A stretch of DNA of 40,009 nt from a virus, in IMG/VR virus record IMGVR_UViG_3300007734_000680, positions 1 through 40,009 of that record. One strand, written 5' to 3'. The translations under genes and the position numbers were made by a program. Positions 2,433-29,327 of the stretch are shown here, one piece after another. Positions within the stretch are counted from its first letter, which is position 1. The number at the start of each line of letters is the position of its first letter. A model generated the notes under the pieces. The model ran no database searches, was not told the origin of the DNA, and saw only the letters and a program-made list of their open reading frames with translations.

Positions 2433-2913
2433 TATCAACTTGGCACCGGTGCTTACCGGTTGCCATGTATGCAGGAGCCCCCTCGCAGATCTGATTAGTC
2501 GGAGAATGCGGGAAGGGATGCCAGATACAAAGATCAGCAAGTGGCTGGAGACTGAGGGTCAGTACGTCAGCCGCATTACACTTGGCAAGCACCGCAGGGA
2601 GCATCTCACTACCGACTTCGAGCAGGCCAAGGCAGCTGCGATCAAGGTGATGGAAAAGCGCAAGAAGACCATGAAGCCAACATCTGGGACAGATCTTGCG
2701 GCGCTTGTTAGGGACTATACATTCTCTGCCGTTGAGAGCGGAGAGCTTGTACCAAGCCTTTCAGAGGGGCTCCGGGCCCAAGAGATCCTGGACCGCCGCC
2801 AAGAGAAGGGCGCAGACAGAGATCTTGCAATGACACTAGCATCTATCCTGGGCGGGGCAACAGTGGTCGAGGGAATTGCTACCCCCGTAGAACCAGAGCT
2901 TCTCACAGAATGA
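2425..2913 (+). CDS. Putative DNA-binding protein (possible small terminase subunit)
   Basis: A 162-residue protein starting at a GTG inside the holin 3' end. The N terminus has a CHVC pair followed by a helical segment (SRRMREGMPDTKISKWLE) and a helix with basic residues (SRITLGKHRREHL), resembling a helix-turn-helix. The middle is lysine-rich and the rest helical. The position upstream of the large terminase, separated only by accessory genes, and the HTH-like start fit a small terminase subunit, but I cannot see a decisive family motif. A transcription regulator is an alternative. It ends in an ATGA overlap with the next gene. Confidence 0.4.
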   Translation: MSNINLAPVLTGCHVCRSPLADLISRRMREGMPDTKISKWLETEGQYVSRITLGKHRREHLTTDFEQAKAAAIKVMEKRKKTMKPTSGTDLAALVRDYTFSAVESGELVPSLSEGLRAQEILDRRQEKGADRDLAMTLASILGGATVVEGIATPVEPELLTE

Positions 2914-3422
2914 TGACCTGGGTGTATGTCGGTGGAACGTTTGACATGTTCCACCACGGACACGCAGAGTTCCTGAGAAAGTGCAGGGACTATGGCAGGG
3001 TTATTGTCTCTTTGAACTCAGACGAGTTTGCAGAGCGCTACAAGAGAAAGCCGATCATGAATATCGCTGAGCGGATGGCTTCAGCACAAGCCTGCCGCTG
3101 GGTCGACAAGGTCGTTGTGAATATCGGTGACGAGGACACAGGGAAGACAATCGACTCGCTAACCGGAGTCAAAGTAATCTACATAGCTCACGGAGATGAC
3201 TGGACCGGCAACTCACTCCTTGGCCAGCTAGGTATAAGCCAGGAATGGCTAGACGAGCGGTCAATCCAAATGCTATACGTTCCATACACTCGGGGAATAT
3301 CAAGCAGCGATATCATTAGGAGAATCAGTGGCGACGTTCACAGCAATTGTAACTGCTCATGCGGACGAGGCAGCGATGCTGCGTACGATCAACTCGCTTC
3401 TGGACCAGACCAGGGCCCCTAA
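2910..3422 (+). CDS. TagD-like cytidylyltransferase (nucleotidyl transferase family)
   Basis: A 170-residue protein with the hallmark motifs of the glycerol-3-phosphate cytidylyltransferase group. These are GGTFDMFHHGH (residues 8-18, with the HxGH active-site signature), a lysine/arginine segment near RYKRKP, GDDW (95-98) and ISSSDI (130-135), equivalent to the ISTTxI nucleotide-binding motif. The known reaction of the family is CTP plus a sugar or polyol phosphate to a CDP-activated product. TagD makes CDP-glycerol for teichoic acids, but substrate choice cannot be read from this sequence, and some relatives use ATP. The start ATG overlaps the upstream stop (ATGA). The Cys-rich C-terminal ~30 residues overlap the following glycosyltransferase gene by 95 bp. 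The likely role is to activate a phospho-sugar or polyol for a phage-encoded glycan pathway. Confidence 0.75.
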   Translation: MMTWVYVGGTFDMFHHGHAEFLRKCRDYGRVIVSLNSDEFAERYKRKPIMNIAERMASAQACRWVDKVVVNIGDEDTGKTIDSLTGVKVIYIAHGDDWTGNSLLGQLGISQEWLDERSIQMLYVPYTRGISSSDIIRRISGDVHSNCNCSCGRGSDAAYDQLASGPDQGP

Positions 3423-3873
3423 TGAAATCATTGTCCTGGCTAGCGATATTAGCCTCTCTGAAGCTGAAAGGGCGTATCCAGCGATCAGGTTCTACCCAGA
3501 GCCAAACCTTAACGACTGGGGCCACGACAAGCGGGCCAAGGGGCTTGACCTGGCGACATCTGATTACGCGGGATGGTTCAACCACGACGACTCATACTCA
3601 AGCTCGTACATCGAAGAGATGATGGCTGAAGCTGAGTCTAGTCATGACGCAGTATTCTGTGGATGGTCAAAAAACAGCACGCCACAGTTCAGAAGCGGTA
3701 GCTCAACATCTGGTAACTACATTGTGAGCACAGAAGTTGGCAGGCGTGCCGGATACACGGATCGTCATTACGAGGCAGACGGTACGTTCATAGACAGAAT
3801 TGCCTCCATAGCAAAATCAGTGAAGTTTGTGCCAAAGGTACTATACTTCCACAATGAGGTGAGAAATGCCTAA
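3328..3873 (+). CDS. Family 2-like glycosyltransferase (GT-A fold)
   Basis: A 181-residue protein beginning at GTG 3328, with AGGAGA at good spacing upstream. The N terminus FTAIVTAHADEAAMLRTINSL is the usual GT2 first strand plus helix. PNEIIVLASD and a following PEPN segment continue the nucleotide-sugar fold. FNHDDSY (residues ~84-90) stands where GT-A enzymes have the metal-binding DxD. The protein is shorter than most GT2 enzymes and appears to be a bare catalytic domain. It overlaps the TagD-like gene by 95 bp in another frame, so the two are probably made together. The acceptor (host wall polymer, lipid carrier or virion protein) is unknown. Confidence 0.7.
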   Translation: MATFTAIVTAHADEAAMLRTINSLLDQTRAPNEIIVLASDISLSEAERAYPAIRFYPEPNLNDWGHDKRAKGLDLATSDYAGWFNHDDSYSSSYIEEMMAEAESSHDAVFCGWSKNSTPQFRSGSSTSGNYIVSTEVGRRAGYTDRHYEADGTFIDRIASIAKSVKFVPKVLYFHNEVRNA

Positions 3874-4183
3874 GACAGCAGCGTGGCAGCGCAAAGAGGG
3901 ACAAAACCCCAAGGGCGGCCTGAATGCCAAAGGAAGGGCATCGTACAAAGCCCAGACTGGCGGTACGCTTAAAGCTCCAGTCAAGAGGGGCGACAATCCA
4001 CGACGCGCATCATTCCTGGCCCGTATGGGCAGCATGCCAGGGCCTGAGCGCGACGAGAAGGGCCGACCAACCCGACTCCTACTCAGTCTCCAGGCGTGGG
4101 GAGCTAGCAGCAAGTCAGACGCGAAGGCAAAGGCACGAGCGATGAGCGAGCGGCTAAAGAATAAGAAGAAGAAGGAATCTTGA
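3866..4183 (+). CDS. DUF6321-like basic protein preceding the terminase
   Basis: A 105-residue, strongly basic protein. The segment GLNAKGRASYKAQTGGTLKAPV followed by RRASFLARMGSMPGPE resembles the DUF6321 phage family, which often sits beside terminase genes; this assignment is from memory of the family pattern. The C terminus is a lysine tail (RLKNKKKKES). It starts 8 bp before the glycosyltransferase stop and ends in a TTGA overlap with the terminase start. Function is unknown. A packaging-associated or DNA-binding role is a guess from position and charge. Confidence 0.6.
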   Translation: MPKTAAWQRKEGQNPKGGLNAKGRASYKAQTGGTLKAPVKRGDNPRRASFLARMGSMPGPERDEKGRPTRLLLSLQAWGASSKSDAKAKARAMSERLKNKKKKES

Positions 4184-5679
4184 GGTCTGTCCAAGGACAA
4201 GCCGCTCTCGATTTGGCTCGCGGTCGCGGTGACATCGAGTTCTTTGCTACTCGCTGGCTCGGTATCGAAGGCAACCCAGGACAGGTCCGATGGTGGAAGG
4301 CCTGCGCTGACCGAGCAGATGATGGGTTCAGGCCAAAGTACCTCACAACTGTCGTTTCCGCGGGTAATCGTGCCGGCAAAACGCTCGCGATGGCGGTTGT
4401 CTGCCTTCATCATGCCCTCTACAAGCTCGGGATTAGACCTCCCACCGGAGGAGATCAGGCGGATGCAATCCGCTGGATCAATGATCCGTACGAGTGGTAC
4501 CACGTGGGGATTCAGCAAGAGACTGCAGAGCTGGTTCATCGGGAGATAGCAATGATCTTGCAGGGGGCTCACCCTGCACAGAAGGGCCGAGGATGCCCGC
4601 TTACAAAGGAGCTCGGCAAGGTTGCCGACTTCGAGAAGAAGTATCGAGGTGAGTACCTGTGGATCAAGTTCAACCCGATAGTGGGCGGGGCCAGCATCCA
4701 CTTCCGGACGACCCAGGACAAGGCCAAGGCTCTCCTGGGCAAGGACATGCAGGGGATCTCCTTCGACGAGGCAGCTTTCGAGCCGCACTTGGTAACAATC
4801 TACCAAGAGGTGCTCAACCTACGACGACTTTCTACGGGGGGCCCTCTGCACTTCATCGGAACCCCAACAGAAGGCTACAACGACTACTCGGATCTGTGGG
4901 AGATGGGCAACCCGGACAATCCCAGCAGAGACGACCAGTTTATTTCGTTCCGGTTGTCCACGAGGGACAATATCGGGTACGGACTACGGCAGGAAGATTT
5001 CGACGCGGTCGTTAGGCAGCAGGCAGAGTACCTGATACCGCAAAACGTAGATGGATACTTCATCGAGTCACGGAAGGCGTTCTTCTCGTCTCAGGGAGTT
5101 GAAGCCTGCTTCGACAGCACATTGGAGGTCGAGGATGCGCCAAAGTCGGCTCACCGTTACGTCCAGGGTTGTGACCCTGGTATTTCGTCCGACGCAACAT
5201 GGGCGCTCACAATCGACATCACAAAGCGCACATCGATGCAGGGAGTACGTGCTCGGAAGCGCTCGGGCAAGCAAACGATCACTGCGGTCGTCAACATGGT
5301 ACGCGAAGGGCATTTGCTTTACAGTTCGAGCGCCCAGTGTACTACAGTAGTCGACTCGACCGGTATGGGTGGCAAGCTCTTCCGGGATGAGTTCTCGATC
5401 ATCAAGCCGCTCAGGGACTTCGACTTCGGCGGAACGAAGTCCAAGAAGCTTGAACTTCTAAACGACCTAAAGACAATAATCGACAAAGGGCAAATCAAGT
5501 TCCCCCGAGGGGGAATCTGGGAAGACTTGCGGAGGCAACTTTTGGCTTACAAACTTGAAGATAAGCGCATTGAGCAGGACGCCGTCATGGCGCTTGCTAT
5601 TGCTGTCCGCTATGCAATAAGGAATCCCGAAAAGGCCGCGGCCAACGTGGCCTTTTCCTATTTTGGAGCTGCTGAATAA
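4180..5679 (+). CDS. terL: Terminase large subunit
   Basis: A 499-residue packaging motor. The ATPase part has a Walker A variant SAGNRAGKT (60-68), a Walker B GISFDEA (192-198) and a coupling motif around FIGTPTEG (225-232). The C-terminal RNase H-like nuclease shows the expected acidic residues at D332 (GCDPG), D392 (VVDSTG) and D467 (EQDAVMA). It would cut concatemeric phage DNA and pump it into the prohead through the portal encoded next. The start is TTG 4180, overlapping the upstream stop (TTGA), and it ends in a TAATG overlap with the portal. The length is normal for the family. Packaging strategy (headful or sequence-specific) cannot be read directly. Confidence 0.93.
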   Translation: MRSVQGQAALDLARGRGDIEFFATRWLGIEGNPGQVRWWKACADRADDGFRPKYLTTVVSAGNRAGKTLAMAVVCLHHALYKLGIRPPTGGDQADAIRWINDPYEWYHVGIQQETAELVHREIAMILQGAHPAQKGRGCPLTKELGKVADFEKKYRGEYLWIKFNPIVGGASIHFRTTQDKAKALLGKDMQGISFDEAAFEPHLVTIYQEVLNLRRLSTGGPLHFIGTPTEGYNDYSDLWEMGNPDNPSRDDQFISFRLSTRDNIGYGLRQEDFDAVVRQQAEYLIPQNVDGYFIESRKAFFSSQGVEACFDSTLEVEDAPKSAHRYVQGCDPGISSDATWALTIDITKRTSMQGVRARKRSGKQTITAVVNMVREGHLLYSSSAQCTTVVDSTGMGGKLFRDEFSIIKPLRDFDFGGTKSKKLELLNDLKTIIDKGQIKFPRGGIWEDLRRQLLAYKLEDKRIEQDAVMALAIAVRYAIRNPEKAAANVAFSYFGAAE

Positions 5680-7973
5680 TGGCTAAGGTAAGAGGCGTAC
5701 CGCGTACATTCGTTGATGGCAAGGGGGTGCCGGGGCAGTATACTACTGACCCTGCGGTTGCCCCTGCCGCACAGGTCCGAGAAATCGGCAAGTCAATCGA
5801 CAAGGCCAAGCGCCTGTCTCGTGGGCAGGTTGAGCCTGGCCGAATGCCAAGCGCAGGGATCAACGTCAAGAACATCGCTTCGGTAGCCAAGGTACGAGGT
5901 GAATCGAGGACAGCAGCTCCGTCCTCTGTGCCCAATGCCGGGCTGTCTGGAAGCGGCTCTGTCGCAACCTCTCCGACTAAAACCAACTCATCTGCTGGCG
6001 GGCGTGGTAATCCTATTGCCAAGAACTATACCCCGCTTCAGATCGACAAACTGACGGAAACCCAGGCAAACTCAGTCATGATGCTCAAGAAGTCCCTTGA
6101 GATGCAGGACGTCAACCCTGACGAGCATGAAGAGTTTAAGCTGTATGGGGAGATTCTTACACGAAAGCAGCAGCTGGAGCCAGAGCAGAACAGACTTCGC
6201 AGCATCTTCCGTCGCTTCGACAGGATGTATCATCCCGACACTATCACGCTGGGCGGGGCCGACCACTGGGCCGAAGACCCGAGCGCTCGCCTCGCCGGCC
6301 GCGCCCACGTATCGGTAAACGTCCACGCCGCATACGTCAACATCCCGTCGTCGCTGCAGGCAGTGACCCCGGTCATCCACTACGTACCCGAGGCGGCAGA
6401 CGAAGAGTCGAGGTCTAATGCTGCAAATAGAGAGAGACTATTCTTTGCCTGGTGGAACGAGCAGAACATGGACCTCAAGCTAGAGACCGCTGCACTGACC
6501 AAGAGCCTATACGGATACACCGCGGCCAAGGTATACTGGGACGCAAACCTACGCATGCCAACGGTCAGTATCATCGAGCAGCCAGAGAATCTCTACATGG
6601 GGTTCGGAAACTCCGATTACACTCGTCTAGACTGGGCTCTGTACTGCTACGGCCTGTCACCTCAGGCAGTAAAGGAAGATTTTGGCATCGACATTATCCC
6701 AGTAAAGCAGGGCGAGAAGTGGTACGGATACTCAACGTCCGGCACCCACGATGACCCGCTTGGAACTGTTTACCAGAATCAGTTTGAACGCAACCCGCTT
6801 CGGCGCGAGACTGTTTACGAGCAACTCCAGGTTGAAGTCTACGACTACTGGTATAAGGTGCCGACGTCGGCCGGCAAGCCGCCGATGGTGTGGAACGCAA
6901 TCTACGTTGGAAACACTTTGGTGAAGCACACACGCCACCCAGAATATGCCGGCAACATCCCGTACGTCATGGTGCAGAACGGCAAGGTGCCAGGAAGTCC
7001 ATACGGCAAGCCGGAGCTCTATGACGTCGAGCAGCTTCTTCGCGAGAAGGACGAGCGGATCACAAACCAGGCCCAGATGATTCAGTCTGTGGTCGGCGGG
7101 CAGATGTGGCAGCTCATCGGTGCTGAGGCCCCAGACGAGGTGCCGCCGAACGCGTTGCCTAAGCCAAACAAGGTTGCAGCGCCCGGGCCAGGAAATGAGC
7201 TCCGTGCCCTTCAGCCGTTTATACCACAGTTCCAGATTGAGGACTACAATAAGCGAATCGACCGCGAAATTGCGGTTGTTACTGGACTCAATGACCTGCT
7301 TTTGGGCCTAGCGCCAACAAGCGTTCTTGGCTCGTCTAAGGCCATTGCTTCGTTGATTGCTAACTACGAGTCTCGCCTTGCTCCAAAGAGGAAGCTCTTC
7401 TACCAGTGGATCAAGGACGTTTGGGTGCTATGCGGACGGGTATGGTCCTCAAAAGATAAATCTATGGCAGCGATATTTGACGAGCAATACAGAATAGATG
7501 TTATTCCGCCTGAGCTTACCCCGCGTGACACGCTTGAGCTTGCTCAGACTGCAATCAATCTTGTACAGAACCGCATCTGGAGCGCAGAGCGCGCAATGGA
7601 TCGAGTTGGCGTTGAGGACCCTGAGGGCGAGCTTGACATCATTCGGGACGAGCAGACTGACGCAACCGTCAACCCTGCAGCTGTCTTGACAATGGCAAAC
7701 TTGCTCCAGACGTTCCAGGCGCTGCAGGCACAGGGCGTGCAAATGCAGCAGCTACAGGGACAGCAACAGCAAGCTGAACAACAGCTCCAGGCGCAACAGC
7801 AATCGCTGAACGCATCGAGGACACTTAACCCGCCGCTGACCGCGGCGCCCGGAATGACCAGCTTTGAGAACGCAGCGAACCCTCCACAGGAATCCCTGCC
7901 GGAGAACGCGCAAGCAGGAGCTCAGCTCCCGCTTGATCTCGAAGCCCCTGAAGAGAATGGGAGTGAGCAATAA
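5679..7973 (+). CDS. Portal protein
   Basis: A 764-residue protein directly after the terminase in a TAATG overlap. The first ~110 residues are basic, low complexity and likely disordered. From ~120 the protein shows portal-like features: long helices, a segment NMDLKLETAALTKSLYGYTAAKVYWD, and GLNDLLLGLAPTSVLGSSKAIASLI (around 540-565), comparable to the wing/clip helices of large portals. The C terminus is a glutamine-rich coiled coil. The size exceeds siphovirus portals (400-500 aa) and is closer to P22-type portals. It would form the dodecameric DNA channel at the head vertex. The assignment rests on position, size and these patterns. Confidence 0.85.
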   Translation: MAKVRGVPRTFVDGKGVPGQYTTDPAVAPAAQVREIGKSIDKAKRLSRGQVEPGRMPSAGINVKNIASVAKVRGESRTAAPSSVPNAGLSGSGSVATSPTKTNSSAGGRGNPIAKNYTPLQIDKLTETQANSVMMLKKSLEMQDVNPDEHEEFKLYGEILTRKQQLEPEQNRLRSIFRRFDRMYHPDTITLGGADHWAEDPSARLAGRAHVSVNVHAAYVNIPSSLQAVTPVIHYVPEAADEESRSNAANRERLFFAWWNEQNMDLKLETAALTKSLYGYTAAKVYWDANLRMPTVSIIEQPENLYMGFGNSDYTRLDWALYCYGLSPQAVKEDFGIDIIPVKQGEKWYGYSTSGTHDDPLGTVYQNQFERNPLRRETVYEQLQVEVYDYWYKVPTSAGKPPMVWNAIYVGNTLVKHTRHPEYAGNIPYVMVQNGKVPGSPYGKPELYDVEQLLREKDERITNQAQMIQSVVGGQMWQLIGAEAPDEVPPNALPKPNKVAAPGPGNELRALQPFIPQFQIEDYNKRIDREIAVVTGLNDLLLGLAPTSVLGSSKAIASLIANYESRLAPKRKLFYQWIKDVWVLCGRVWSSKDKSMAAIFDEQYRIDVIPPELTPRDTLELAQTAINLVQNRIWSAERAMDRVGVEDPEGELDIIRDEQTDATVNPAAVLTMANLLQTFQALQAQGVQMQQLQGQQQQAEQQLQAQQQSLNASRTLNPPLTAAPGMTSFENAANPPQESLPENAQAGAQLPLDLEAPEENGSEQ

Positions 7974-15090: not shown

Positions 15091-15110
15091 CCAGAGATAG
15101 GAGAAAACGC

Positions 15111-15671: not shown

Positions 15672-15689
15672 AGATTGAGGTAAGTTAAA

Positions 15690-16661
15690 GTGGCTACAAC
15701 TAGTACCGCTACTACGAACTTCTCTGATCTCGTAACGCAACTTGTTGCGGCGCGAGCTGAAGAGGAGTTGCGTGCACGAGCTGTGCACGCGATGCCGGGA
15801 CTTTATGTCCCAGCGCGCTTTGTGAAGGGCACAAACACCCTTCGCTACGCACGATATGCAGACCTTGGCGTCAATACAACGGCGCTTTCGGAAGGTGCTG
15901 CACCAACTGATCAGGCCTTGACGATCTCTAGCGAGTTCTTCACGGCTACGCAGTACGGCGCGACCGTCGCGGTGACGGATCTCGCTCAGATCGACAATCC
16001 GCATGACCTCATCGGCATCGCCGCTGAACGAATTGCGTATCAGGCGACCCGATCTATGGACGTTCTCGTTCGCGATAACATCCACTCGACGGCTGCTACT
16101 TCCGCCATTTTCGGAGCAACTGGAGCAACAACGCTTACTGCAAACACTGCAAACAGCGCCGTTGCTACAGCTGGCGTCCTTACTGGCGCATTCGTTAAGC
16201 AAATGGTTGCTCGCCTTAAGGGCGCAAACGTTCCTCAGTTTGCTGACGGAACGTATCGCTGCATCATTCATCCGGCGCAGGAGTATGACCTTGTGTCAGA
16301 CACCAGCGTAAGCGGCTGGATCGAGGCGAACAAGTACGTCAACAACACGCCGCTTCTCACAAATGAGATCGGTCAGTTTGCTGGCGTGCGCTTCATTGTG
16401 TCTTCGGATGCTAAGGTTTATGCAACTGCTGGTGCTTCAAGTGGGAACGTATACAATGCGCTCTTCCTTGGCCCAGATGCGTACACCATTGGTGATTCGC
16501 AGACGCTGCAGAGCTACTTCGTGGCACCAGGTGGTGACCACACCGACCCGCTCGCCCAGAAGGCGCTGGTCGGCTACAAGATGCGCTTCGGCTCCCTCCT
16601 CCTCGACGAGGCAGGCGCTCGCTATCGCATCCTGAAGACTCAGGCTACAGTCGCTGTCTAA
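15690..16661 (+). CDS. Major capsid protein (N4-gp56 family)
   Basis: A 323-residue protein starting at GTG 15690 with GAGG upstream. The sequence follows the N4-gp56 capsid family. The N-terminal helix leads into AMPGLYVPARFVKGTNTLRYARYADL, then EFFTATQYGATVAVTDLAQI and a helix AAERIAYQATRSMDVLVRDN. Further on are YRCIIHPAQEYDL and the terminal YKMRFGSLLLDEAGARYRI. It would form the HK97-fold shell. By my reading all its isoleucines use ATC or ATT, never ATA, unlike the large proteins upstream, which use ATA often. A strong hairpin follows it, suggesting a separate abundant transcript end. Confidence 0.9.
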   Translation: MATTSTATTNFSDLVTQLVAARAEEELRARAVHAMPGLYVPARFVKGTNTLRYARYADLGVNTTALSEGAAPTDQALTISSEFFTATQYGATVAVTDLAQIDNPHDLIGIAAERIAYQATRSMDVLVRDNIHSTAATSAIFGATGATTLTANTANSAVATAGVLTGAFVKQMVARLKGANVPQFADGTYRCIIHPAQEYDLVSDTSVSGWIEANKYVNNTPLLTNEIGQFAGVRFIVSSDAKVYATAGASSGNVYNALFLGPDAYTIGDSQTLQSYFVAPGGDHTDPLAQKALVGYKMRFGSLLLDEAGARYRILKTQATVAV

Positions 16662-16682
16662 TCGCAGCATAGTTAGCTGAGT

Positions 16683-16724
16683 GGGGCCCCGACGGTTGTA
16701 CCGCAAGTCTACCGTTGGGGCCCC
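16683..16724 (+). terminator. Strong hairpin after the major capsid gene
   Basis: A 14-bp stem (16683-16696 with 16711-16724, one G-U pair) encloses a 14-base loop, and C-rich sequence follows. There is no T-tract, so it may be a processing or stability element or an inefficient terminator that lowers expression of the glycosyltransferase downstream. Confidence 0.6.
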
Positions 16725-16753
16725 CCACACCCAGCCATAGGAGGATATCTTAT

Positions 16754-18013
16754 ATGGCTGATACTGTCAAGGTTCTAATCTGGGGGACTGCCGAGCAGGG
16801 CCCTTGCGCATATTTCCGTGGCCACATGTTCGACGAGGAGCTCAAAAGGCTTGGAATCGAGATGAGGCATATCGACAGGGTCGAGTTCGTCTCGCACCCA
16901 CTTGCTGCCGGGATGAGTCAAGACGAGGCTATGATGAAGGGCCTCCTCAAGATCGACACAAAAGATATCGATTGGGCTGACGTAATCATGTTCCGTCGAT
17001 ATTACAACTGCTCTGCTAAGTGTAGCACTTGCGGAATAGCAAGCAAAGATGCCGAAACTATAAAGTCTCATCCGCATAAGATGGATCTTCGGGACGGCAT
17101 CACAGAGATGACATGGCCAGCCTTTGAGAGTAGGTCTCACAACAAAGGCATTCTCTACGAAACAGACGACAACCATTTCTTCATCAAGCCGTGGAATGGC
17201 TATTTCCCAGATGTTATCCAGGAGTGGCCGCTGATTGAGAGAATGGCTAAGCGTGCCGATGTTATAACCACGAGCACCAAGCCGATAGCAGATTATTATA
17301 GTAAATTCAACGATAACATTAGGATAATAAGAAATGCAATTGATCCGTCGATTTATACTACTGACCGTGGCCGTCCTGAGCACGGTGGCAATCTTCCGCG
17401 TGTGGTCTACTATGGAAGCACGGTGCGAATGCGGGACTACGGCGGAGAATACGACCACGCGCAAAAAAGGAATGTAGGCGGGTACTGCGGAAAGGCCATT
17501 GAGGACCTTCGCAGTCCGGTCAAGAAACTATGGAATGTGTTTATTGGAGTAAATCCTGGAACCGAGCACGTGATTGCTCCGTTTTTTGACGAAGCGTTCC
17601 ACTACGTGGAAAACATCAGGGGGTTTGCCCAGACTCTGGCGTCGAGCTATCCGGACATCGGGATTGCGCCGCTTGTTGGTGATGACTTTGACCGAAATAA
17701 GTCCGAGCTCCATTGGCTAGAGTACACAATGGTGGGCGCTGCATTCGTGGGGCAGAAGTTCAAGTATGGCGAGTCTCCATACAGCATGGTTAGACACGGC
17801 GTGGATGGCATGCTGGCAGCTACTAGATCTGAATGGTATAACGCAATGAAGTCGCTGGTAGAGAGTAAGGACCTTCGGGAACAGCTTGCCGGCGCAGCCA
17901 AGGAGCGCATTTTGAAGGAGTACAACTACAAGGAAAGGGCCCAGGAGTGGGCCGAGGTGTTCCGCTGGGCCGCTGAGCACCCGAACTATGGCCTGCGAAA
18001 GAGGGAAGATTGA
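16754..18013 (+). CDS. GT4-like glycosyltransferase (GT-B fold)
   Basis: A 419-residue protein with an excellent AGGAGG ribosome site 8 bp before ATG 16754; an in-frame upstream TTG lies in the hairpin and is rejected. The N terminus VKVLIWGTAEQGPCAYFRGHMFDEELKRLG is a Rossmann-type strand and loop typical of GT-B enzymes. The C-terminal half has VITTSTKPIADYY, RIIRNAID, a SELHWLEYTMVGAAFVGQ segment matching the sugar-nucleotide-binding E-x7-E region, and a helical tail ending KERAQEWAEVF. A CSAKCSTC cluster at ~88-95 is unusual and may bind metal. It lies alone between capsid and connector genes, which suggests decoration of the virion or adaptation of the host surface. The stop overlaps the next ATG. 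Confidence 0.7.
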   Translation: MADTVKVLIWGTAEQGPCAYFRGHMFDEELKRLGIEMRHIDRVEFVSHPLAAGMSQDEAMMKGLLKIDTKDIDWADVIMFRRYYNCSAKCSTCGIASKDAETIKSHPHKMDLRDGITEMTWPAFESRSHNKGILYETDDNHFFIKPWNGYFPDVIQEWPLIERMAKRADVITTSTKPIADYYSKFNDNIRIIRNAIDPSIYTTDRGRPEHGGNLPRVVYYGSTVRMRDYGGEYDHAQKRNVGGYCGKAIEDLRSPVKKLWNVFIGVNPGTEHVIAPFFDEAFHYVENIRGFAQTLASSYPDIGIAPLVGDDFDRNKSELHWLEYTMVGAAFVGQKFKYGESPYSMVRHGVDGMLAATRSEWYNAMKSLVESKDLREQLAGAAKERILKEYNYKERAQEWAEVFRWAAEHPNYGLRKRED

Positions 18014-21386: not shown

Positions 21387-21634
21387 TGTCATACGCTCAA
21401 TTTCAGGCCCTCATGGCCGCAATCAACGATGTCCGGTCCGAGCTCACGGAGCGCCTGGACCGTATTGAGCTGCGTCTCAGGGAGGTCGAGGATTACCAGA
21501 CCAAAGCAGAAGCATTGGAGGAGGCTGGACAAGAGCGTAACATTGCTTTACGATGGCGTGTGGGGATCGCTATTAGCGCCCTAGGGGCCGTCATGTCCCT
21601 CATAGTCCAGGTAATCAAACTGGGGGGAAACTAA
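21386..21634 (+). CDS. Coiled-coil membrane protein (XhlA-like)
   Basis: An 82-residue protein in TAATG overlaps on both sides. Residues ~10-45 are a charged amphipathic coiled coil (RSELTERLDRIELRLREVED). One hydrophobic helix at ~58-77 (VGIAISALGAVMSLIVQVI) follows, with a short tail. This matches the layout of XhlA-type proteins that follow tail genes in many Gram-positive phages and assist lysis or anchor to the membrane. It could be a second holin-like protein next to the canonical holin at 2217. The function is inferred from layout only. Confidence 0.55.
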   Translation: MSYAQFQALMAAINDVRSELTERLDRIELRLREVEDYQTKAEALEEAGQERNIALRWRVGIAISALGAVMSLIVQVIKLGGN

Positions 21635-22425
21635 TGTCTCAGGAAATACGCATGATCAAATCGCTGAGGGACCAAGGGATGTCCTTTGCAAAGATCGGTG
21701 AGCTCATGGGGCTTACCAAAGACCAGGCCCAGAAGAAGTTTAAGAGCTATGGGTCAGGACTTGACGACTACACAGAAGAACTGTACAATAGTACAGAAGG
21801 ACTGGACAAAAAGAATAATCGTAAAACGAATAAGAAGTTAAACAGAACTGTTAATAGTTCAGGAGCTCTGTATACACCAGGCGGAGATGACTACATTGGA
21901 GTCAACGTCGGGTTCTTTGATATTGAGAGCACCTACTCCAGCTGGCGCCGCATGCTATGCGGCTCGATTGCCGACCAATTTGGCAACGTCGAGACGTATA
22001 CTCTTGACACGCACCCAGGGAAGAACTGGCTGGACGATTCCAAGTTGGTCGAAGCCTACGCCCGGCGCCTAGAGGAGTTCGACGTTCTCTACTCCTGGAA
22101 CGGAAAGTTGTTCGACATCCCGGTCATCAACTCTCGCCTGCTGAAGAATGATCTGAAGCCATGCGAGCCGCAGATGCACGTGGACTTGATGTACAAGGCT
22201 ACGGGTTCCGCCCTGGCAATCGGACGAAAGTCGCTTGAGAACGTGTCGAAGTATTTCGAGGTCAACAACTCTAAGACCCCGCTTGACGTGCGTATCTGGG
22301 AGAAGGCTGACCACGGCGACAAGGAAGCATACGAATTGATCATCGAACACTGCGAAGCAGACGTATTGGTCCTAAGGGACGTGTTCGGAAAGCTGAAGAA
22401 GCTCGTCCACGTAATGCACCGATGA
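21634..22425 (+). CDS. DnaQ-like 3'-5' exonuclease domain with N-terminal helix-turn-helix
   Basis: A 263-residue protein. Residues ~5-35 (IKSLRDQGMSFAKIGELMGLTKDQAQKKF) look like a helix-turn-helix. A hydrophilic lysine/asparagine-rich linker (~40-85) follows. From ~88 an RNase H-like exonuclease is visible: ExoI FFDIEST, ExoII SWNGKLFDIPVINSRL and ExoIII HCEADVLVLRDVF. These supply the DEDD-type acidic residues for two-metal hydrolysis. Relatives include the YprB-like RNase H exonucleases. It may proofread or resect phage DNA in a genome with no polymerase of its own, or degrade host nucleic acid. The end overlaps the next gene (ATGA). Confidence 0.7.
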   Translation: MSQEIRMIKSLRDQGMSFAKIGELMGLTKDQAQKKFKSYGSGLDDYTEELYNSTEGLDKKNNRKTNKKLNRTVNSSGALYTPGGDDYIGVNVGFFDIESTYSSWRRMLCGSIADQFGNVETYTLDTHPGKNWLDDSKLVEAYARRLEEFDVLYSWNGKLFDIPVINSRLLKNDLKPCEPQMHVDLMYKATGSALAIGRKSLENVSKYFEVNNSKTPLDVRIWEKADHGDKEAYELIIEHCEADVLVLRDVFGKLKKLVHVMHR

Positions 22426-23279
22426 GGGTGGGCGTGGTCGGCAGCGGCCAGGTCGCCCAACACATCGTTGCCGAAGCAAAGGAATCTGGTATCGACGTCG
22501 TCCTCATCGGACGCGTCAATGGGGCAACTGTATCTAAGCGTGCGTTCGATCCCAATCGGACCTGGGAAGATGAGACAGATCTTCTTCTTGCGGTATCAGA
22601 TTGCGACGTGGTGATTAACACTGCCGCGTTCCGCGATCTAAACGCGTGCGAAAAAAACCCAGTGGTTGCACGACAAGTTAATATTGACCTGCCACGGCTC
22701 CTATCCCAGAAGGGGCCTCGGCAGGTCTTTTTGTCGACAGATTATGTCTTCCGCGGCCTGCATGATAGTAAGCGGAAAGAGAGCGATCCAACAGACGCCG
22801 TATGTGTTTACGGAGCCACAAAGGCAGCGGGTGAGCGGGAGGTCCTAGCATTGGGCGGGGCGGTCGTAAGGATCGCCTCGCCCTGGGGCATTTACCCCAG
22901 CCCAGAGCGGCCGCACTTTGTGGACGCCATAATACCGAAGGGAATTTCTGCCGGTAAGCTTGACATGCCAATCGATCAACATTTCTCGCCAACGTACTTA
23001 CCAGACGTGGCTGGGATAATCCTTGATGTGGCGACTGAGCCGAACATGGGCGGTATATTCCATGCGGTCAACGGCGGGTCAACCAACTGGAAAGACTTTA
23101 CCGCCTACATCTTTGAGGTGCTTAAGACCAAGGTTAAGGTCACTGGGTCTGTCCGGAATGACATGCTTCGCCCAAGGTTTGGGGCCTTGGATAACACGAA
23201 GCTACCCAGGCCTCGCCATTGGGCGTTGGCCCTGGAGGAGTACATCAAGGGCGATGTGAAGGCAGAGGAAAGACGATGA
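22422..23279 (+). CDS. RmlD-like NAD(P)-dependent sugar reductase (SDR)
   Basis: A 285-residue extended SDR. Visible features are the dinucleotide site VGVVGSGQVAQHI (residues 3-15), INTAAFRDL in the position of the NTAAYTxVD motif of dTDP-4-dehydrorhamnose reductases, the active-site serine strand STDYVFRG, and YGATKAAGE with the YxxxK catalytic pair. The substrate is probably a 4-keto-6-deoxy nucleotide sugar, although UDP or CDP sugars cannot be excluded. It is coupled to the second SDR by an ATGA overlap. A RmlC-like epimerase lies further down (26784), giving two steps of a deoxysugar route. A RmlA homologue was not found and no convincing RmlB is present. Confidence 0.75.
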   Translation: MRVGVVGSGQVAQHIVAEAKESGIDVVLIGRVNGATVSKRAFDPNRTWEDETDLLLAVSDCDVVINTAAFRDLNACEKNPVVARQVNIDLPRLLSQKGPRQVFLSTDYVFRGLHDSKRKESDPTDAVCVYGATKAAGEREVLALGGAVVRIASPWGIYPSPERPHFVDAIIPKGISAGKLDMPIDQHFSPTYLPDVAGIILDVATEPNMGGIFHAVNGGSTNWKDFTAYIFEVLKTKVKVTGSVRNDMLRPRFGALDNTKLPRPRHWALALEEYIKGDVKAEERR

Positions 23280-24220
23280 AAATACTGATTACAGGAAACC
23301 TTGGGTACCTTGGGTCGGTTCTAACAAACATGGCTAAGCTCCACGGGCATGTGGTGCATGGCTTGGACAATGGGATGCAGGCGGCGACGTTGATATCGGA
23401 GGACATGGTTTATGAGGTTGATGCTCAGTACAATGCGGTCAAGGATCTTGGGGAATCCAGGTACGATGTCATTTATCACTTGGCTGCAATTTCCAACGAC
23501 CCAATGGGCGATGCATACAGTGATCTTACCCATGCAACAAACGTTATCTTGGTAGAATCACTGTGCGCTAAGTACCCAGACGCACGTCATGTCCTTGCGT
23601 CATCTGCATCGGTGTATGGGGCTATCCCATCCACCGACATTGCCGATGAGAGGTACCCGTTCAACCCGTTGACGGCATACGCTGTTAGCAAGGTCGAGGC
23701 GGAGAAGGTGGTTCGCAGCCACTGGGAATACTCCATCCTGCGGATGGGTACGCTATGGGGAGGATCTCCTAACTTCCGGCGAGATATCGTGGTCAACGCT
23801 TTCATGCACGAGGGGATACACTCTGGGATCATCCGACCCAAGGCCCAGGCTAGGCGGCCGATGCTCCATGTAGCGGATGCTGCCCGTACCATGATGCTTG
23901 CTGGGAGGTCTGGTCTCTGGACCAACAGGGTGGTCAACGTTGCTGCGGAAAACACAACGGTAAGCGACATCGCCAAGGCCGTTGCGTTTTATCTGGCTAT
24001 CGACGTCGACTGGTCGGAGTCCAAAGAGCCGGACAAGCGCGATTATGCTATGGATTGCTCCAGGTACAACAGCATATCGGCCGAGCTGGCGCCGCTGCTC
24101 AAGGTCGGGGACATTGGCGCCATGGCTGGCGTGAGGTCGTCGATACTGGCGTACGGTAAGCCGTACCCGACCAGGCTTGAGCAGTTGCGGACTTGGTTTG
24201 ACACGTATAAAAATCCGTGA
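23276..24220 (+). CDS. NAD-dependent sugar epimerase/dehydratase (extended SDR)
   Basis: A 314-residue protein starting in an ATGA overlap with the RmlD-like gene. It has ITGNLGYLGS (GxxGxxG, residues 5-14), VIYHLAAISNDP, the serine motif SSASVYG, YAVSK (YxxxK) and RPMLHVADAARTM, all standard for nucleotide-sugar epimerases/dehydratases. The TDE triad of true 4,6-dehydratases (RmlB) is not seen at the serine motif, so a 4-epimerase or ketoreductase is more likely. The C terminus ends in LEQLRTWFDTYKNP, as in related bacterial enzymes. The last codons overlap a candidate promoter for the next gene block. Confidence 0.75.
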   Translation: MKILITGNLGYLGSVLTNMAKLHGHVVHGLDNGMQAATLISEDMVYEVDAQYNAVKDLGESRYDVIYHLAAISNDPMGDAYSDLTHATNVILVESLCAKYPDARHVLASSASVYGAIPSTDIADERYPFNPLTAYAVSKVEAEKVVRSHWEYSILRMGTLWGGSPNFRRDIVVNAFMHEGIHSGIIRPKAQARRPMLHVADAARTMMLAGRSGLWTNRVVNVAAENTTVSDIAKAVAFYLAIDVDWSESKEPDKRDYAMDCSRYNSISAELAPLLKVGDIGAMAGVRSSILAYGKPYPTRLEQLRTWFDTYKNP

Positions 24221-24226
24221 GAGAAT
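24198..24226 (+). promoter_or_regulatory. Candidate sigma70-type promoter for the recombination block
   Basis: TTGACA (24198-24203) is followed after exactly 17 bp by GAGAAT (24221-24226), four of six matches to TATAAT. It lies at the 3' end of the SDR gene, ~85 bp before the next start, where the tight gene packing is interrupted. The -35 is perfect; the -10 is weak. Confidence 0.5.
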
Positions 24227-24230
24227 AGGG

Positions 24231-24284
24231 TCGTAGAGACCAATTTCTACGAGGGCTCCTGCGTCGGTCTCCGCAGGGGCCCTC
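24231..24284 (+). promoter_or_regulatory. Two tandem hairpins in the leader of the recombination block
   Basis: A 7-bp stem (24231-24237 / 24246-24252) is followed by a 13-bp GC-rich stem (24251-24263 / 24272-24284, one G-U pair). The two share two bases at their junction. No T-tract follows. They would form at the 5' end of a transcript from the promoter just upstream, or act as a leaky terminator for the SDR genes. Confidence 0.5.
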
Positions 24285-24308
24285 AACTATCTGAGACTAG
24301 GTGAGAAT

Positions 24309-24965
24309 ATGCACGTGAAGGACAAGATCGTGGAGGTCCTCCGAGCTCGTAGTGCGGTCGGTCGGCCGTCGGTGCGCAAGTGGCGTGGCAGCCTCCTGGG
24401 GGGTTGCGTACGTGCGCACTGGTATTCTGCAAACGGAGTGCCGGCTTCTGAGCCATTTACCGATGACACCTTGCGAGTGTTCGCAATGGGTAATGCGGTA
24501 GGTGACTTTTTGGAGAAGGCGCTGCGCGAGGCATACGGGGATAGGATCAGGTTCGAGGTTCCGGTGGTCTCTGACGAGGACGACTTCGCCGGCAACATCG
24601 ACGCGCTGGTTCAGCTCGAGAGCGGCAAGGTGGTCGTGCTTGAGTTCAAGAGCATGAAGCACCAGGGGTTCATCAGACTCCGGGAGCCAAAGCCAGAGCA
24701 TGCCATACAGGTGGCATCGTACGCAAGGCTGATCGGTGCGAAGGATATCGAGGCGTGGGTCGTATACGTGGACAAGGAGAACTACGACATCCTGGAGTTT
24801 CAGGTCGACATCCCGTCCTGGGCTGACCGCGCCAAGAGAATCCTAAATGTGCTAAACTACTACGGCGACCGAAAACCGCCACGGTTGCCAGAGGCCGACA
24901 CACGGAAGTGGCCGTGTGGGTGGTGCAATTGGCGGACGGAATGTCTAGGAGGTACAAATGGCTGA
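24309..24965 (+). CDS. Cas4/RecB-like PD-(D/E)XK exonuclease with iron-sulfur cysteines
   Basis: A 218-residue nuclease. The catalytic core has D98 (GNIDAL) and E112-x-K114 (LEFKSM), with an upstream helix glutamate in GNAVGDFLEK. A single Cys33 (GGCVRAHWY) and three C-terminal cysteines C203, C206 and C212 (CGWCNWRTEC) form the 1+3 pattern that holds a 4Fe-4S cluster in Cas4 and AddB-type nucleases. The ERF annealing gene overlaps its end, so the pair is a likely exonuclease-annealase recombination module making 3' tails for strand annealing. No CRISPR array or cas1/cas2 is present, so a CRISPR role is not suggested. Confidence 0.8.
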   Translation: MHVKDKIVEVLRARSAVGRPSVRKWRGSLLGGCVRAHWYSANGVPASEPFTDDTLRVFAMGNAVGDFLEKALREAYGDRIRFEVPVVSDEDDFAGNIDALVQLESGKVVVLEFKSMKHQGFIRLREPKPEHAIQVASYARLIGAKDIEAWVVYVDKENYDILEFQVDIPSWADRAKRILNVLNYYGDRKPPRLPEADTRKWPCGWCNWRTECLGGTNG

Positions 24966-25479
24966 GGCCAAGAAGAACCTAGCTGCCAAGCTCGTGGACA
25001 TCATGAAGGCAGTGGGATACATCCGCAAGTCTGGTACGAATCAGGCCCAGGGATACAAGTACGTTATGGCCACCGATGTGGCCGACGCAGTTCGTGAAGA
25101 GATGGGGAAGAACAACGTGTCGATGGTCCCATCTTCGGTCGATGTGGTTGCAGAGGGCTTGACGCCTAGCGGCAAGCAGACTCTGCTCACGCTTCGATTT
25201 ACGTGGACACTTACCGATGGCGATACTGGCGAGACAATTACGTTCCAGTCTATCGGTACGGGGTCGGATAGCAGCGACAAGGCTGCGTACAAGGCGGCCA
25301 CCGGTGCGCTCAAGTACGCGCTTCTCACCGCATTCTTGATTCCAACAGGCGATGACCCAGAGAATGACAGCAACGACAAAGTAATTGCAGATGCAGCTGC
25401 CAGGATCTTTGAGGCCAAGCCAGCGGCAAAGGCGCCCGCTAAGACAGCGTCTACAGACTTTGAAGGGGTGGACTTCTAA
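24958..25479 (+). CDS. erf: ERF-family single-strand annealing protein
   Basis: A 173-residue protein. The core matches ERF recombinases: NQAQGYKYVMATDVADAV near the N terminus, a beta segment with LTLRFTWTLTD, and the signature GTGSDSSDKAAYKAATGALKY followed by LIPTGDDPE. The tail is Ala/Lys/Pro-rich with an acidic end (DFEGVDF), reminiscent of SSB-type acidic tips. ERF proteins anneal complementary single strands, for example to circularise or recombine phage DNA. It starts within the nuclease gene (8 bp overlap) after a GGAGG site. Confidence 0.88.
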   Translation: MAEAKKNLAAKLVDIMKAVGYIRKSGTNQAQGYKYVMATDVADAVREEMGKNNVSMVPSSVDVVAEGLTPSGKQTLLTLRFTWTLTDGDTGETITFQSIGTGSDSSDKAAYKAATGALKYALLTAFLIPTGDDPENDSNDKVIADAAARIFEAKPAAKAPAKTASTDFEGVDF

Positions 25480-25871
25480 TGGAGCGACTTGATCTTTGGT
25501 TCGGTAAGGAAGCGCCGGTGCGCAAGCGCATTGAGAAGCTCGGGGTCAACGCCCTGACCTTCCGCGGGCAGGCACAGACGGCAGAGTACGATTGGTGGGT
25601 AGCCAACAAGAAGAACGGCCCAGAGCCTACGGTTAGGTACCTGAACGCTTCGGTCACCGTGTTCGATGAGGCGCTCGCCGAGCACGTGGAGAAGATCTAC
25701 GCGTCATACGCCAAGAAGCTGGAGTCTGACAGCCGCGATCCTCGCCCGCACATCCATGTCATTGGACGATACAGTGGCGACAAGAAGCTCTCCGATGATG
25801 GCAAGCGCTACTTCGTTGACTTCAACGTCGTCGAGGCGAGCCCACTCATCTTTGGGCCGCTGCGCAAGTGA
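25479..25871 (+). CDS. Unknown protein in recombination block
   Basis: A 130-residue protein in a TAATGG overlap with erf. It begins MERLDLWFGKEAPV and contains a compact mixed alpha/beta sequence with RPHIHVIGRYSGDKKLSDDGKRYF near the middle-to-end. No motif is recognised. The position between the annealing protein and other DNA genes suggests a nucleic-acid role, perhaps an accessory to ERF. It ends in a GTGA overlap. Confidence 0.6.
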   Translation: MERLDLWFGKEAPVRKRIEKLGVNALTFRGQAQTAEYDWWVANKKNGPEPTVRYLNASVTVFDEALAEHVEKIYASYAKKLESDSRDPRPHIHVIGRYSGDKKLSDDGKRYFVDFNVVEASPLIFGPLRK

Positions 25872-26077
25872 GCATAGAGTTTAGCGGTGCCAGGGCTGTT
25901 ATCGAGGCATCTCGATGCGCCCTGGACCGCGAATACTCCAAGCGCGATCACGCAGAGTGCGAATGGTGCGCCCACGTACCGGCAGATATTGTTAAAAGTG
26001 TCTGGATGTGGATGCGAAACCCAGCAAATGCTGCGGAGATCGCTAAGGAAGATCGCGGTGAGGAGCAGCTCTGGTAG
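25868..26077 (+). CDS. Small unknown protein
   Basis: A 69-residue protein from GTG 25868 (GTGA overlap). It begins MSIEFSG, like the unrelated MazG protein at 27882 (MSIEFSK), probably by chance. It carries a CEWC pair near residue 31 that could belong to a metal site, and tryptophan-rich helices (VWMWMRNPANAAEI). Function is unknown. Its last codons overlap the probable start of the secreted protein that follows. Confidence 0.5.
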   Translation: MSIEFSGARAVIEASRCALDREYSKRDHAECEWCAHVPADIVKSVWMWMRNPANAAEIAKEDRGEEQLW

Positions 26078-26481
26078 CACTCGTCCTGGCCGCAGTGATT
26101 TCGTTCTGCGGCCCTGGACCGGTGGACAAGGACCGCGGGTGGGCGTCGTGGTACGACTCCCCATTAAGGTCAAGTCACTTGTACAACAATCCGTGGTACA
26201 CACGTGGCAAGCACAAGGTAATGAATTACGCAGCGGTTAAATCCTTCAAATGGGGAGACGTCCCTTACAACATCCAGGTGTGTTCGGTCAAGACCGGCAG
26301 CTGTGTAATCGCCAAGGTGGTCGACCATTGTGCCGGATGCACTGGCAAGAGGCTCGTCGATTTGAGCCCGATACTTTTTACAGCCCTTGGCATTCCGCTC
26401 CATCATGGAGTGGCCAAGGTGGTTCTCAGGAGGGTAAATGGCAATCAAGGGTCCTCTTACTGCAGCCCAACGGCGCGGTAA
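26071..26481 (+). CDS. RlpA-like double-psi beta-barrel protein, probably secreted
   Basis: The barrel is recognisable from GWASWYDSP, the NYAA segment, VIAKVVDHCAGC and RLVDLSPILFTALGIPLHHGVAKVVLRRV, which place an aspartate and a G-x-V ending as in RlpA/expansin-type domains. The first standard start is GTG 26095. However, the open frame extends upstream to give VALVLAAVISFCGPG, a good hydrophobic signal sequence with a cysteine. CTG 26071 lies 5 bp after an AGGAG site. I therefore favour 26071 with a rare CTG start, about 136 aa, with GTG 26095 as the conservative alternative. It may act on peptidoglycan, aiding lysis or entry. RlpA enzymes cleave naked glycan, but here the activity is unproven. 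Confidence 0.6.
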   Translation: MVALVLAAVISFCGPGPVDKDRGWASWYDSPLRSSHLYNNPWYTRGKHKVMNYAAVKSFKWGDVPYNIQVCSVKTGSCVIAKVVDHCAGCTGKRLVDLSPILFTALGIPLHHGVAKVVLRRVNGNQGSSYCSPTAR

Positions 26482-26812
26482 GAACAATCGAAAGAGAGGA
26501 AACGCAATTGAGCTCTGGGCCTGTAAGGAACTTGGCATTTCTCGTACAGGAATGTTTGGAGGGAAGGCTGACGGGGGAAGACACGACGAGTGGCTGGTCA
26601 TTCAGGTCAAATCTGGACCGTCGAACTTCTCCGAGAAGGTCTGGGGGCTTCTTGAGTCGCTTAAGCCGAATGCTTCGCAGCTCAAGGCGGTAGTCTTTGC
26701 CAGCGCTGACGGTCCAGGAGTCAAGCGCCGGGCGTATGTGGTAACAACCCTGGATGACTTTAAAGAATGGTTTGGAGGCAGATATGGAACAGATTCCGCA
26801 GATATTGAGTAA
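26438..26812 (+). CDS. Holliday-junction-resolvase-like nuclease (PD-(D/E)XK)
   Basis: A 124-residue protein with a good CAGGAGG site, overlapping the end of the RlpA-like gene. Residues ~14-32 (GKNNRKRGNAIELWACKELG) carry the leading glutamate of the fold. KADGGRHDEWLVIQVKSG (43-60) supplies the D and QxK catalytic residues. This is the small Hjc/VRR-type endonuclease layout. It would resolve branched intermediates made by the ERF/Cas4-like module before packaging. Other restriction-type nucleases of this fold are possible. Confidence 0.65.
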   Translation: MAIKGPLTAAQRRGKNNRKRGNAIELWACKELGISRTGMFGGKADGGRHDEWLVIQVKSGPSNFSEKVWGLLESLKPNASQLKAVVFASADGPGVKRRAYVVTTLDDFKEWFGGRYGTDSADIE

Positions 26813-27299
26813 AGGGATATTCCTGGATGCACGTGGGTTCTTCCAGGAGGTTGCCAAAGATGGCGACGATGTCATGAACGCGTTGGGATCAATTAGGCAG
26901 ATTAACATGAGCAAGAGCAAGAAGGGCACCCTGCGCGGCATCCACGCACAGACCGGAATGTCAAAAGCAATGTGGGTTCCGTATGGCTTAGCTCAGATTG
27001 TGGCCGTTAACCTTGACGTAAACTCAAATGACTTCGGCCAGGTAGTAACTCATCACATGTCAGCTGGCGACGGCAAGATCTTTTGGGCGCCTGACAACTG
27101 GGGGCGTGGGTTTCTTGCCCTTGAGGAAGGCACAATTGTGGCGTACGCCTGTTCAGACGTATACCGGCCAGGCCTTGAGTTTGGTGTGAATCCGATGACG
27201 TGCGGAGTGTCATGGGATTTCAAGAATATATCGGATGTCGAGCTTCTTGTTAGCGACAAGGATCGCGACGCCAAGCACATAGGAGATCTTAAGAAATGA
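26784..27299 (+). CDS. rfbC: RmlC-like nucleotide-sugar 3,5-epimerase
   Basis: A 171-residue cupin starting at ATG 26784 with GGAGG at good spacing. The family motif RGIHAQ (51-56) carries the catalytic histidine (LRGLHxQ in RmlC). NLDVNSNDFGQ, then NWGRGFLALEEGTIVAYACSDVY and the conserved E of GLEFGVN, follow the RmlC order, including the tyrosine of the YxxSDxY strand. The known reaction is epimerisation of a dTDP-4-keto-6-deoxyhexose. With the RmlD-like SDR at 22422 it gives two consecutive steps. It is separated from those genes by the recombination block. The start overlaps the nuclease gene by 29 bp. Confidence 0.75.
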   Translation: MEQIPQILSKGIFLDARGFFQEVAKDGDDVMNALGSIRQINMSKSKKGTLRGIHAQTGMSKAMWVPYGLAQIVAVNLDVNSNDFGQVVTHHMSAGDGKIFWAPDNWGRGFLALEEGTIVAYACSDVYRPGLEFGVNPMTCGVSWDFKNISDVELLVSDKDRDAKHIGDLKK

Positions 27300-29191: not shown

Positions 29192-29327
29192 GGTAAAGGA
29201 TTTCTGGATTTACTGCCCATCGGTGGGCAAAAAGCATGGGCTCCTCGAGCTCATGAAGAACGAGGCCGGCGGGCTGCTGCTCTACTGCCCTAAGTGCTAC
29301 AAGCCGCGAAAGAAGAAGGGTCAGTAA
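29184..29327 (+). CDS. Small zinc-ribbon-like protein (47 aa)
   Basis: ATG 29184 follows GGAGG with 5-bp spacing and overlaps the previous stop. CP near residue 10 and CPKC near residue 37 are spaced like a truncated zinc ribbon, with a lysine tail (RKKKGQ). TAATG links it to the helicase gene. Function is unknown. Confidence 0.6.
   Translation: MSEVKDFWIYCPSVGKKHGLLELMKNEAGGLLLYCPKCYKPRKKKGQ

Follow-up and report, generated by a model that had tools for sequence, protein, structure and literature searches.

The 40,009-base virus record IMG/VR IMGVR_UViG_3300007734_000680 (positions 1 to 40,009, hereafter the window) carries six genes for carbohydrate enzymes, and these fall into two modules. 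Four of them stay in place in a family of related viruses and form the core (module A): a GT4-like glycosyltransferase, an RmlD-like reductase, an extended short-chain dehydrogenase/reductase (SDR) and an RmlC-like epimerase. The other two, a TagD-like protein and a GT2-class glycosyltransferase (module B), come and go jointly, apart from the core. Our preferred reading, held tentatively and with a little less than even confidence, is that of a glycosylation apparatus in two modules, held constant in a family of podovirus-like phages, where the core would remodel a nucleoside-diphosphate sugar (NDP-sugar) of the host and GT4 would decorate the virion.

This partly supports a first-pass annotation of the window, which had picked out the right genes but treated them as one set. 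All six open reading frames (ORFs) were confirmed at their starts (Table 1), the proteins match the families that had been named, and their active-site motifs are intact. Degenerate active sites, proposed as a ground for rejecting the idea, did not occur. Unrelated presence patterns, the other such ground, are absent within the core and apply only between the two modules.

Constancy of the core genes

We compared 24 records, the window and 23 further viral records of 26-42 kb each, with a GC of 52-56%; the longest relatives of the window are 40-42 kb. The genes for the capsid protein, GT4, RmlD and the SDR are each present in 24 of 24 records. RmlC is found in 21, and the other three (G015, G019, G022) end before its place, while the TagD-like gene is present in 15 records and GT2 in 14.

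The gene order is also constant: the capsid gene and GT4; DnaQ-like, RmlD, SDR, Cas4 and ERF; the ORF starting at 26438 (p26438) and RmlC; and the slot of module B, the ORF starting at 3866 (p3866) and TerL. RmlD and the SDR are adjacent in all 24 records. The DnaQ-like protein of the window gave no tblastn match in some records, and in two (G017, G018) an RlpA gene lies between p26438 and RmlC. The distant relative G024 (GT4 353 bits, RmlD 87, SDR 189) keeps both capsid-GT4 and RmlD-SDR; TagD, GT2 and RmlC were not detectable in it by hidden Markov model (HMM).

To see the link between GT4 and the capsid gene in more loci, viral contigs were searched with the capsid protein (best 80 of 92 related stretches kept, 79 distinct) and, in a separate scan, with a GT4 alignment (93 relatives, 79 loci kept). 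The capsid gene lies directly before GT4 in 75 of 75 GT4 loci with room upstream, and GT4 is next in 62 of 63 capsid loci; contigs in these two scans overlap and are kin, and the counts do not represent independent events. Of the 62, a script found 58; in the other four (L141, L142, L156, L159) GT4 is present, and the script failed as the stop-to-stop frame starts upstream. L155, the one miss, was rejected as an exception to this arrangement: it is a fold-back chimera in which the capsid match stops at residue 209, the capsid gene is truncated, and terminase and portal are reversed. On the other side of GT4, the structural ORF starting at 18010 is next in 57 of 60 loci, and about 750 nt away in the remaining three. 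Three named phages served as controls (Page, StenR_269, BRock); their capsid proteins are related, yet no transferase is annotated after the capsid gene in any of them, and MW202801 has a different glycan cassette there.

All six genes are under purifying selection, like TerL and portal. Measured against G005, the ratio of nonsynonymous to synonymous substitution rates (dN/dS) is 0.067 for TagD, 0.133 for GT2, 0.038 for GT4, 0.078 for RmlD and 0.017 for the SDR (dS near saturation); the comparison genes give 0.031 (TerL), 0.047 (portal) and 0.063 (major capsid protein). For RmlC the value was not computable in this pair, and two other pairs gave 0.158 and 0.068. Some values are higher, e.g. 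0.211 for the SDR between G007 and G011. Further, the pairwise distances of the six genes correlate with those of portal (Spearman 0.30-0.76, Mantel p 0.001-0.017). A recent or chance acquisition of the sugar genes is ruled out by the synteny, the correlation with portal distances and the dN/dS values.

Module B varies as a pair

The slot before p3866 was studied in loci from a TerL search of viral contigs (best 80 of 269 related stretches kept). It is covered in 64 of the 80 loci and not in the other 16. Among the 64 slots, 37 hold TagD and GT2, 11 hold TagD and another transferase-like protein, 16 hold neither, and none holds a single member; both partners are thus present in 48. Three of these eleven proteins went into the HMM for the second transferase type. 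Several of the empty slots are so short that the genes on either side almost meet. Three records (G006, G015, G020) cover the slot and lack the pair, and they keep GT4, RmlD and the SDR; RmlC is kept too in G006 and G020, and G015 ends earlier. The earlier idea that all six genes act together fails for the set as a whole: a single six-gene pathway is ruled out by the pair varying independently of the rest.

The TagD-like protein belongs to the TagD/CCT/ECT/HldE superfamily, and its HxGH motif is present in 15 of 15 relatives. Its best solved relatives are ethanolamine-phosphate, choline-phosphate and glycerol-phosphate cytidylyltransferases. In NCBIfam, the score for TIGR01518, the family of TagD glycerol-3-phosphate cytidylyltransferases (58.8 bits, cut-off 165.4), is tied with that for rfaE_dom_II (57.6 bits); the cut-off for the HldE adenylyltransferase domain, TIGR02199, at 57.6 bits, is 181.5. 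GT2 matches Pfam PF00535 with 46.7 bits (cut-off 23.3), and its acidic metal motif H86 D87 D88 is invariant in 12 of 12 sequences.

Predicted chemistry of the core enzymes

Five of the six proteins match NCBIfam families, all of them below the equivalog cut-offs, and GT2 matches no NCBIfam family. As no equivalog cut-off is reached, substrate-level names are unjustified and we describe the enzymes by class.

The SDR carries the motifs SSASVYG and YxxxK in 24 of 24 sequences. In 4,6-dehydratases an Asp-Glu forms part of the TDE catalytic motif. Since Ala-Ser stands at these positions in 21 of 21 aligned sequences, the SDR should not be RmlB, and a 4,6-dehydratase identity was rejected. In a profile search of the PDB the best match was Cj1427 (6vo6, 136.6 bits), with the next at 88.9, 48 bits lower. 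The same protein is the top structure match (Z 32.0, root-mean-square deviation (rmsd) 2.2, 286 aligned residues, 22% identity). Passages of PMC10680097 describe Cj1427 as an enzyme that binds NADH tightly and oxidises GDP-heptose at C4, with alpha-ketoglutarate recycling; the order they give in Campylobacter is C4-dehydrogenase, C3/C5-epimerase and C4-reductase, with no dehydratase.

In the RmlC-like protein the motif RG[IL]HxQ is found in 21 of 21 sequences and SxKD in 20 of 21, one sequence being truncated where its contig stops. Residues H54, K61, Y121 and D160 are invariant in 18 of 18; mapped by motif, not by direct alignment, they correspond to the catalytic H76, K82, Y140 and D180 of S. 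suis RmlC as given in passages of PMC7949155. The RmlD-like protein has STDYV[FY] and YGxxK in 24 of 24 sequences, Tyr replacing Phe in seven, and its nearest solved structure is 1vl0. Judged from these sequence features, we propose that SDR, RmlC-like and RmlD-like proteins form an oxidase-epimerase-reductase set.

A Pfam scan of 30 window proteins, a set that leaves out TerL, portal, capsid and several small ORFs, found no RmlA, RmlB, GtrA-type flippase, thymidylate-synthase-like or other base-hydroxylating enzyme. The first-pass annotation was right that RmlA and a clear RmlB are missing; calling the pathway incomplete, however, presumes a 6-deoxysugar. The absent RmlB may be no gap, because the SDR resembles the Cj1427 C4-dehydrogenase and a dehydratase-free route is possible. 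The deoxysugar product that had been suggested is unproven.

Cellular relatives of the SDR were also collected, with 80 loci kept of 482. An RmlC relative is present in 20 of the 80 loci, in 10 of these adjoining the SDR on the same strand, and an RmlD relative in one; some gene overlaps in these loci are stop-to-stop artefacts. In three genomes (L311, L322, L344) four consecutive genes encode a cytidylyltransferase, an SDR, RmlC and another SDR, and a TDE motif is absent from both SDRs; the cytidylyltransferase is like the glucose-1-phosphate type (279-298 bits, cut-off 300.25). Eighteen viral SDR loci were set apart as not family-like; four of these contain RmlC and two contain RmlD, one of the latter turning out to be G024, a distant member of the family. 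A cellular SDR relative at L374:7845-10319 forms a fusion with a C-methyltransferase (Methyltransf_13/14) and is followed by two further genes of that kind; this type of SDR may serve branched-sugar pathways too.

For GT4 the Pfam match is weak (26.5 bits, cut-off 25). An AlphaFold model, based on 20 family members, has a predicted local distance difference test (pLDDT) score of 83.7 and matches 6tvp with Z 24.4 and rmsd 3.8 over 325 aligned residues. The model supports the assignment of GT4 as a probable retaining-type transferase of the GT-B fold.

Layout in the window and neighbouring genes

The scatter of the six genes is real, and it recurs at the same positions in the relatives. To describe them as inserted into other blocks rather than grouped, as was done earlier, nevertheless understates their order. 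Given their fixed positions in the family and the short overlaps at most junctions, of only a few bases, we regard the sugar genes as members of local operons.

Table 1. Positions of the sugar genes and the capsid gene in the window
Feature	Position	Strand	Module	Supporting match or remark
TagD-like cytidylyltransferase-like protein (TagD/CCT/ECT/HldE superfamily)	2910..3422	+	B	Pfam CTP_transf_like 1.5e-18
GT2-class soluble GT-A glycosyltransferase	3328..3873	+	B	Pfam Glycos_transf_2 4.2e-12
Major capsid protein gene	15690..16661	+		PHROG major head protein 1.7e-42; upstream neighbour of GT4
GT4-like glycosyltransferase, GT-B fold, retaining type (predicted)	16754..18013	+	A	Pfam Glyco_trans_1_2 7e-6
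RmlD-like NDP-4-keto-sugar reductase	22422..23279	+	A	Pfam RmlD_sub_bind 8e-36
Extended SDR, Cj1427-like, proposed NDP-sugar C4-dehydrogenase	23276..24220	+	A	Pfam Epimerase 1.4e-25
RmlC-like cupin NDP-4-keto-sugar 3,5-epimerase	26784..27299	+	A	Pfam dTDP_sugar_isom 8e-29, above its cut-off

Overlaps of 4 nt join the TagD-like gene to the ORF at 2425 (which ends at 2913), GT4 to the next structural ORF at 18010, RmlD to the DnaQ-like ORF (ending at 22425) and RmlD to the SDR. GT2 starts with GTG inside the TagD-like frame, the two reading frames sharing 95 nt, and its end overlaps p3866. The start of RmlC lies inside p26438, which ends at 26812. For GT4 and RmlC the relatives favour the inner ATGs (16754 and 26784) over the mechanical starts at 16715 and 26754. 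The overprinted tail of the TagD-like protein (HSxCNCSCG, window 3328-3422) is present in many relatives, not all.

A small gene for a HAD-type phosphatase lies between DnaQ-like and RmlD in four records (G006, G008, G009, G022) and not in the window. Two of its copies, at L180:12529-12921 (G008) and L175:8889-9251 (G006), are weakly like the capsule phosphatases EcbF/BcbF (7.7e-9 and 1.2e-6, below cut-off), and it could be a seventh sugar gene of some relatives. In G024 an ORF on the minus strand between DnaQ and RmlD (L515:246-1100) looks by eye like a sugar nucleotidylyltransferase; it has no Pfam, NCBIfam or convincing PDB match. If it is one, the G024 phage would make its own NDP-sugar.

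Other differences concern genes nearby. DnaB (window 29294-30616) and an RlpA-like double-psi barrel gene (26095-26481) are on the plus strand in the clade of the window. Most relatives have DnaB on the opposite strand, and the RlpA match likewise, apart from that in G017 and G018; this might reflect rearrangement or replacement. A holin-like ORF of the window (2217-2432) has no tblastn match in some members of the family, and L059 has a longer related-looking ORF at its position.

The portal and capsid relatives of the window, Bacillus phage Page and MW202801, suggest that the family is podovirus-like. Searching a phage collection with the window DNA gave no match, and neither did TerL by tblastn. 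Genome contigs scanned with TerL for a host gave 56 pattern matches and no relatives, and no prophage or genome-linked relative was found.

Proposed mechanism and alternatives

We infer the order of the reactions, the base of the NDP-sugar, the acceptor and the biological benefit as follows. The SDR would oxidise C4 of a host-made NDP-sugar (dTDP, GDP or CDP), the RmlC-like cupin would epimerise the 4-keto-sugar at C3 and/or C5, and C4 would then be reduced by the RmlD-like enzyme, giving a sugar donor that is absent from the host pool. Enzymes whose genes lie among the replication genes would prepare this donor. The gene of GT4 lies among the structural genes, directly behind that of the capsid protein, and this retaining GT-B enzyme, produced from the structural operon, would transfer the sugar to a virion protein, the major capsid protein being the likeliest candidate. 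The TagD-like enzyme may produce a small alcohol or a sugar in CDP-activated form, which its soluble GT-A partner, belonging to one of two alternative types, would add as a further decoration. A bolder version, which we think clearly less likely than not, has a dehydratase-free NDP-sugar pathway in the core genome, an obligatory capsid decoration by a transferase tied to the capsid gene, and a swappable TagD-transferase cassette that adds a second, CDP-derived decoration and possibly switches the 'serotype' of the virion.

Several observations weigh against this mechanism. The identity of the SDR to Cj1427 is only 22%, and in the structural comparison Pal is within Z 1 of Cj1427 and GalE-type epimerases reach Z 30-31, so the SDR could be a 4-epimerase. 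The RmlC-like protein resembles dTDP-sugar RmlC more closely than it does the GDP-heptose epimerases of Campylobacter, a point in favour of a rhamnose-type pathway supplied by RmlA and RmlB of the host. RmlC may be dispensable, because G024 has GT4, RmlD and the SDR and no detectable RmlC. The activity of the TagD-like protein is uncertain, because Tyr126 stands in 12 of 12 aligned sequences at the Arg of RTxGIST, the signature motif of TagD; the aligned ethanolamine-phosphate enzyme has the Arg. In addition, the core chemistry is predicted by comparison, and gene neighbourhood is the sole pointer to the capsid protein as acceptor.

The strongest competitor, in our view a minority possibility to be taken seriously, keeps virion decoration by GT4 and changes the sugar. 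Host RmlA and RmlB would give dTDP-4-keto-6-deoxyglucose, phage RmlC and RmlD would convert it to dTDP-L-rhamnose or an isomer, and the SDR would be a 4-epimerase or alternative reductase. It gains from dTDP-pathway enzymes being the best profile matches of the RmlC-like and RmlD-like proteins, and from the SDR structure being nearly as near to a GalE-type enzyme (2p5u, Z 30.8) as to Cj1427. However, RmlC (85 bits, TIGR01221 cut-off 155.75) and RmlD (122.9 bits, TIGR01214 cut-off 224.05) both stay under their equivalog cut-offs, Arg108 replaces the canonical Asn/His of RmlC in 18 of 18 sequences, and the profile score of the SDR is clearly highest for Cj1427.

The first-pass annotation had offered two outcomes, a glycosylated capsid or fibre and altered host wall glycans. 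A glycosylated capsid remains reasonable; a change of wall or lipopolysaccharide glycans that blocks superinfection is less likely, and we consider it improbable. TagD-type enzymes can make CDP-glycerol for teichoic acid, which would suit such a change, and superinfection exclusion is a role proposed for phage glycosyltransferases in passages of PMC10202952. Against this, the six families have no clear membrane segment (highest 19-residue hydropathy mean 1.55), and the proteins look soluble, fitting a cytosolic acceptor. GtrABC-type serotype conversion uses a membrane flippase and a membrane-anchored transferase, and no GtrA was seen among the 30 proteins scanned. GT4 follows the capsid gene in essentially every locus tested. 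The lack of a prophage or genome-linked relative also argues against it, since a lytic phage would presumably gain little from a lasting serotype change. Least probable, and in our judgement very unlikely, is that the transferases glycosylate modified DNA bases as a protection against restriction. RmlD, SDR and RmlC do lie among replication and recombination genes, and the T4 alpha-glucosyltransferase (1y6f; Z 19.7, rmsd 4.0, 323 aligned) is among the GT-B matches of GT4. Many transferases that act on metabolites or polysaccharides nevertheless rank above this enzyme, GT4 goes with late structural rather than early genes, and the scan of 30 window proteins revealed no base-hydroxylating enzyme.

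Relation to known systems

Phage sugar genes are usually regarded as optional additions of host origin. In this uncultured family, which has been sampled many times, four such genes are no less constant than those for capsid and terminase, and the prediction is that its members cannot do without virion glycosylation. Should the SDR act as a C4-dehydrogenase, it would show in a phage a route that is known from Campylobacter. The TagD-transferase slot, whose genes are paired and replaceable, provides a natural experiment on the purpose of virion glycans. In the literature searched, mostly at the level of titles and abstracts, there was no description of the window family or its gene set, nor any report of three enzymes for nucleotide-sugar remodelling that are constant in the core genome of a phage along with a capsid-linked transferase.

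The heptose module of Campylobacter jejuni, as described in passages of PMC10680097 and PMC7949155, likewise has a Cj1427-like SDR, an RmlC-like cupin and an SDR reductase and needs no 4,6-dehydratase. In contrast, no heptose-phosphate or guanylyltransferase gene was recognised in the window, the RmlC-like protein is nearer to the dTDP-sugar type, and the reductase is RmlD-like. With the dTDP-L-rhamnose pathway RmlABCD the window shares the RmlC and RmlD families and their catalytic residues; it differs in having no recognised RmlA or RmlB, in missing the equivalog cut-offs and in the Arg108.

Among phages, Blueeyedbeauty (genes 76-78) and Atuin (169-171), which infect Streptomyces and Arthrobacter, have a TagD-like protein 44% identical to that of the window (homologues about 43-46%) beside transferases. 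These transferases, however, have no BLASTP match to the GT2 of the window, and the annotation of the stretches inspected lists no RmlC, RmlD or SDR. Podoviridae sp. ctQWt234 (MW202801, Manatee Spring) is related in its capsid protein (27.9%), and the last transferase of its cassette matches the C-terminal part of GT4 (32%), whereas the cassette itself consists of an Fe-S oxidoreductase, PhyH, a methyltransferase and a NodB-like protein. Glycosylation of phage virions as such is already known, judging from passages of PMC12619734: in mycobacteriophages glycans were observed on capsid and tail subunits (Freeman et al. 2023, cited there). Phage-encoded transferases and a proposed virion-protein target are common to both systems; compared with the mycobacteriophages as they appear in that source, the family of the window is known from genes alone, and it also brings enzymes for nucleotide-sugar remodelling.

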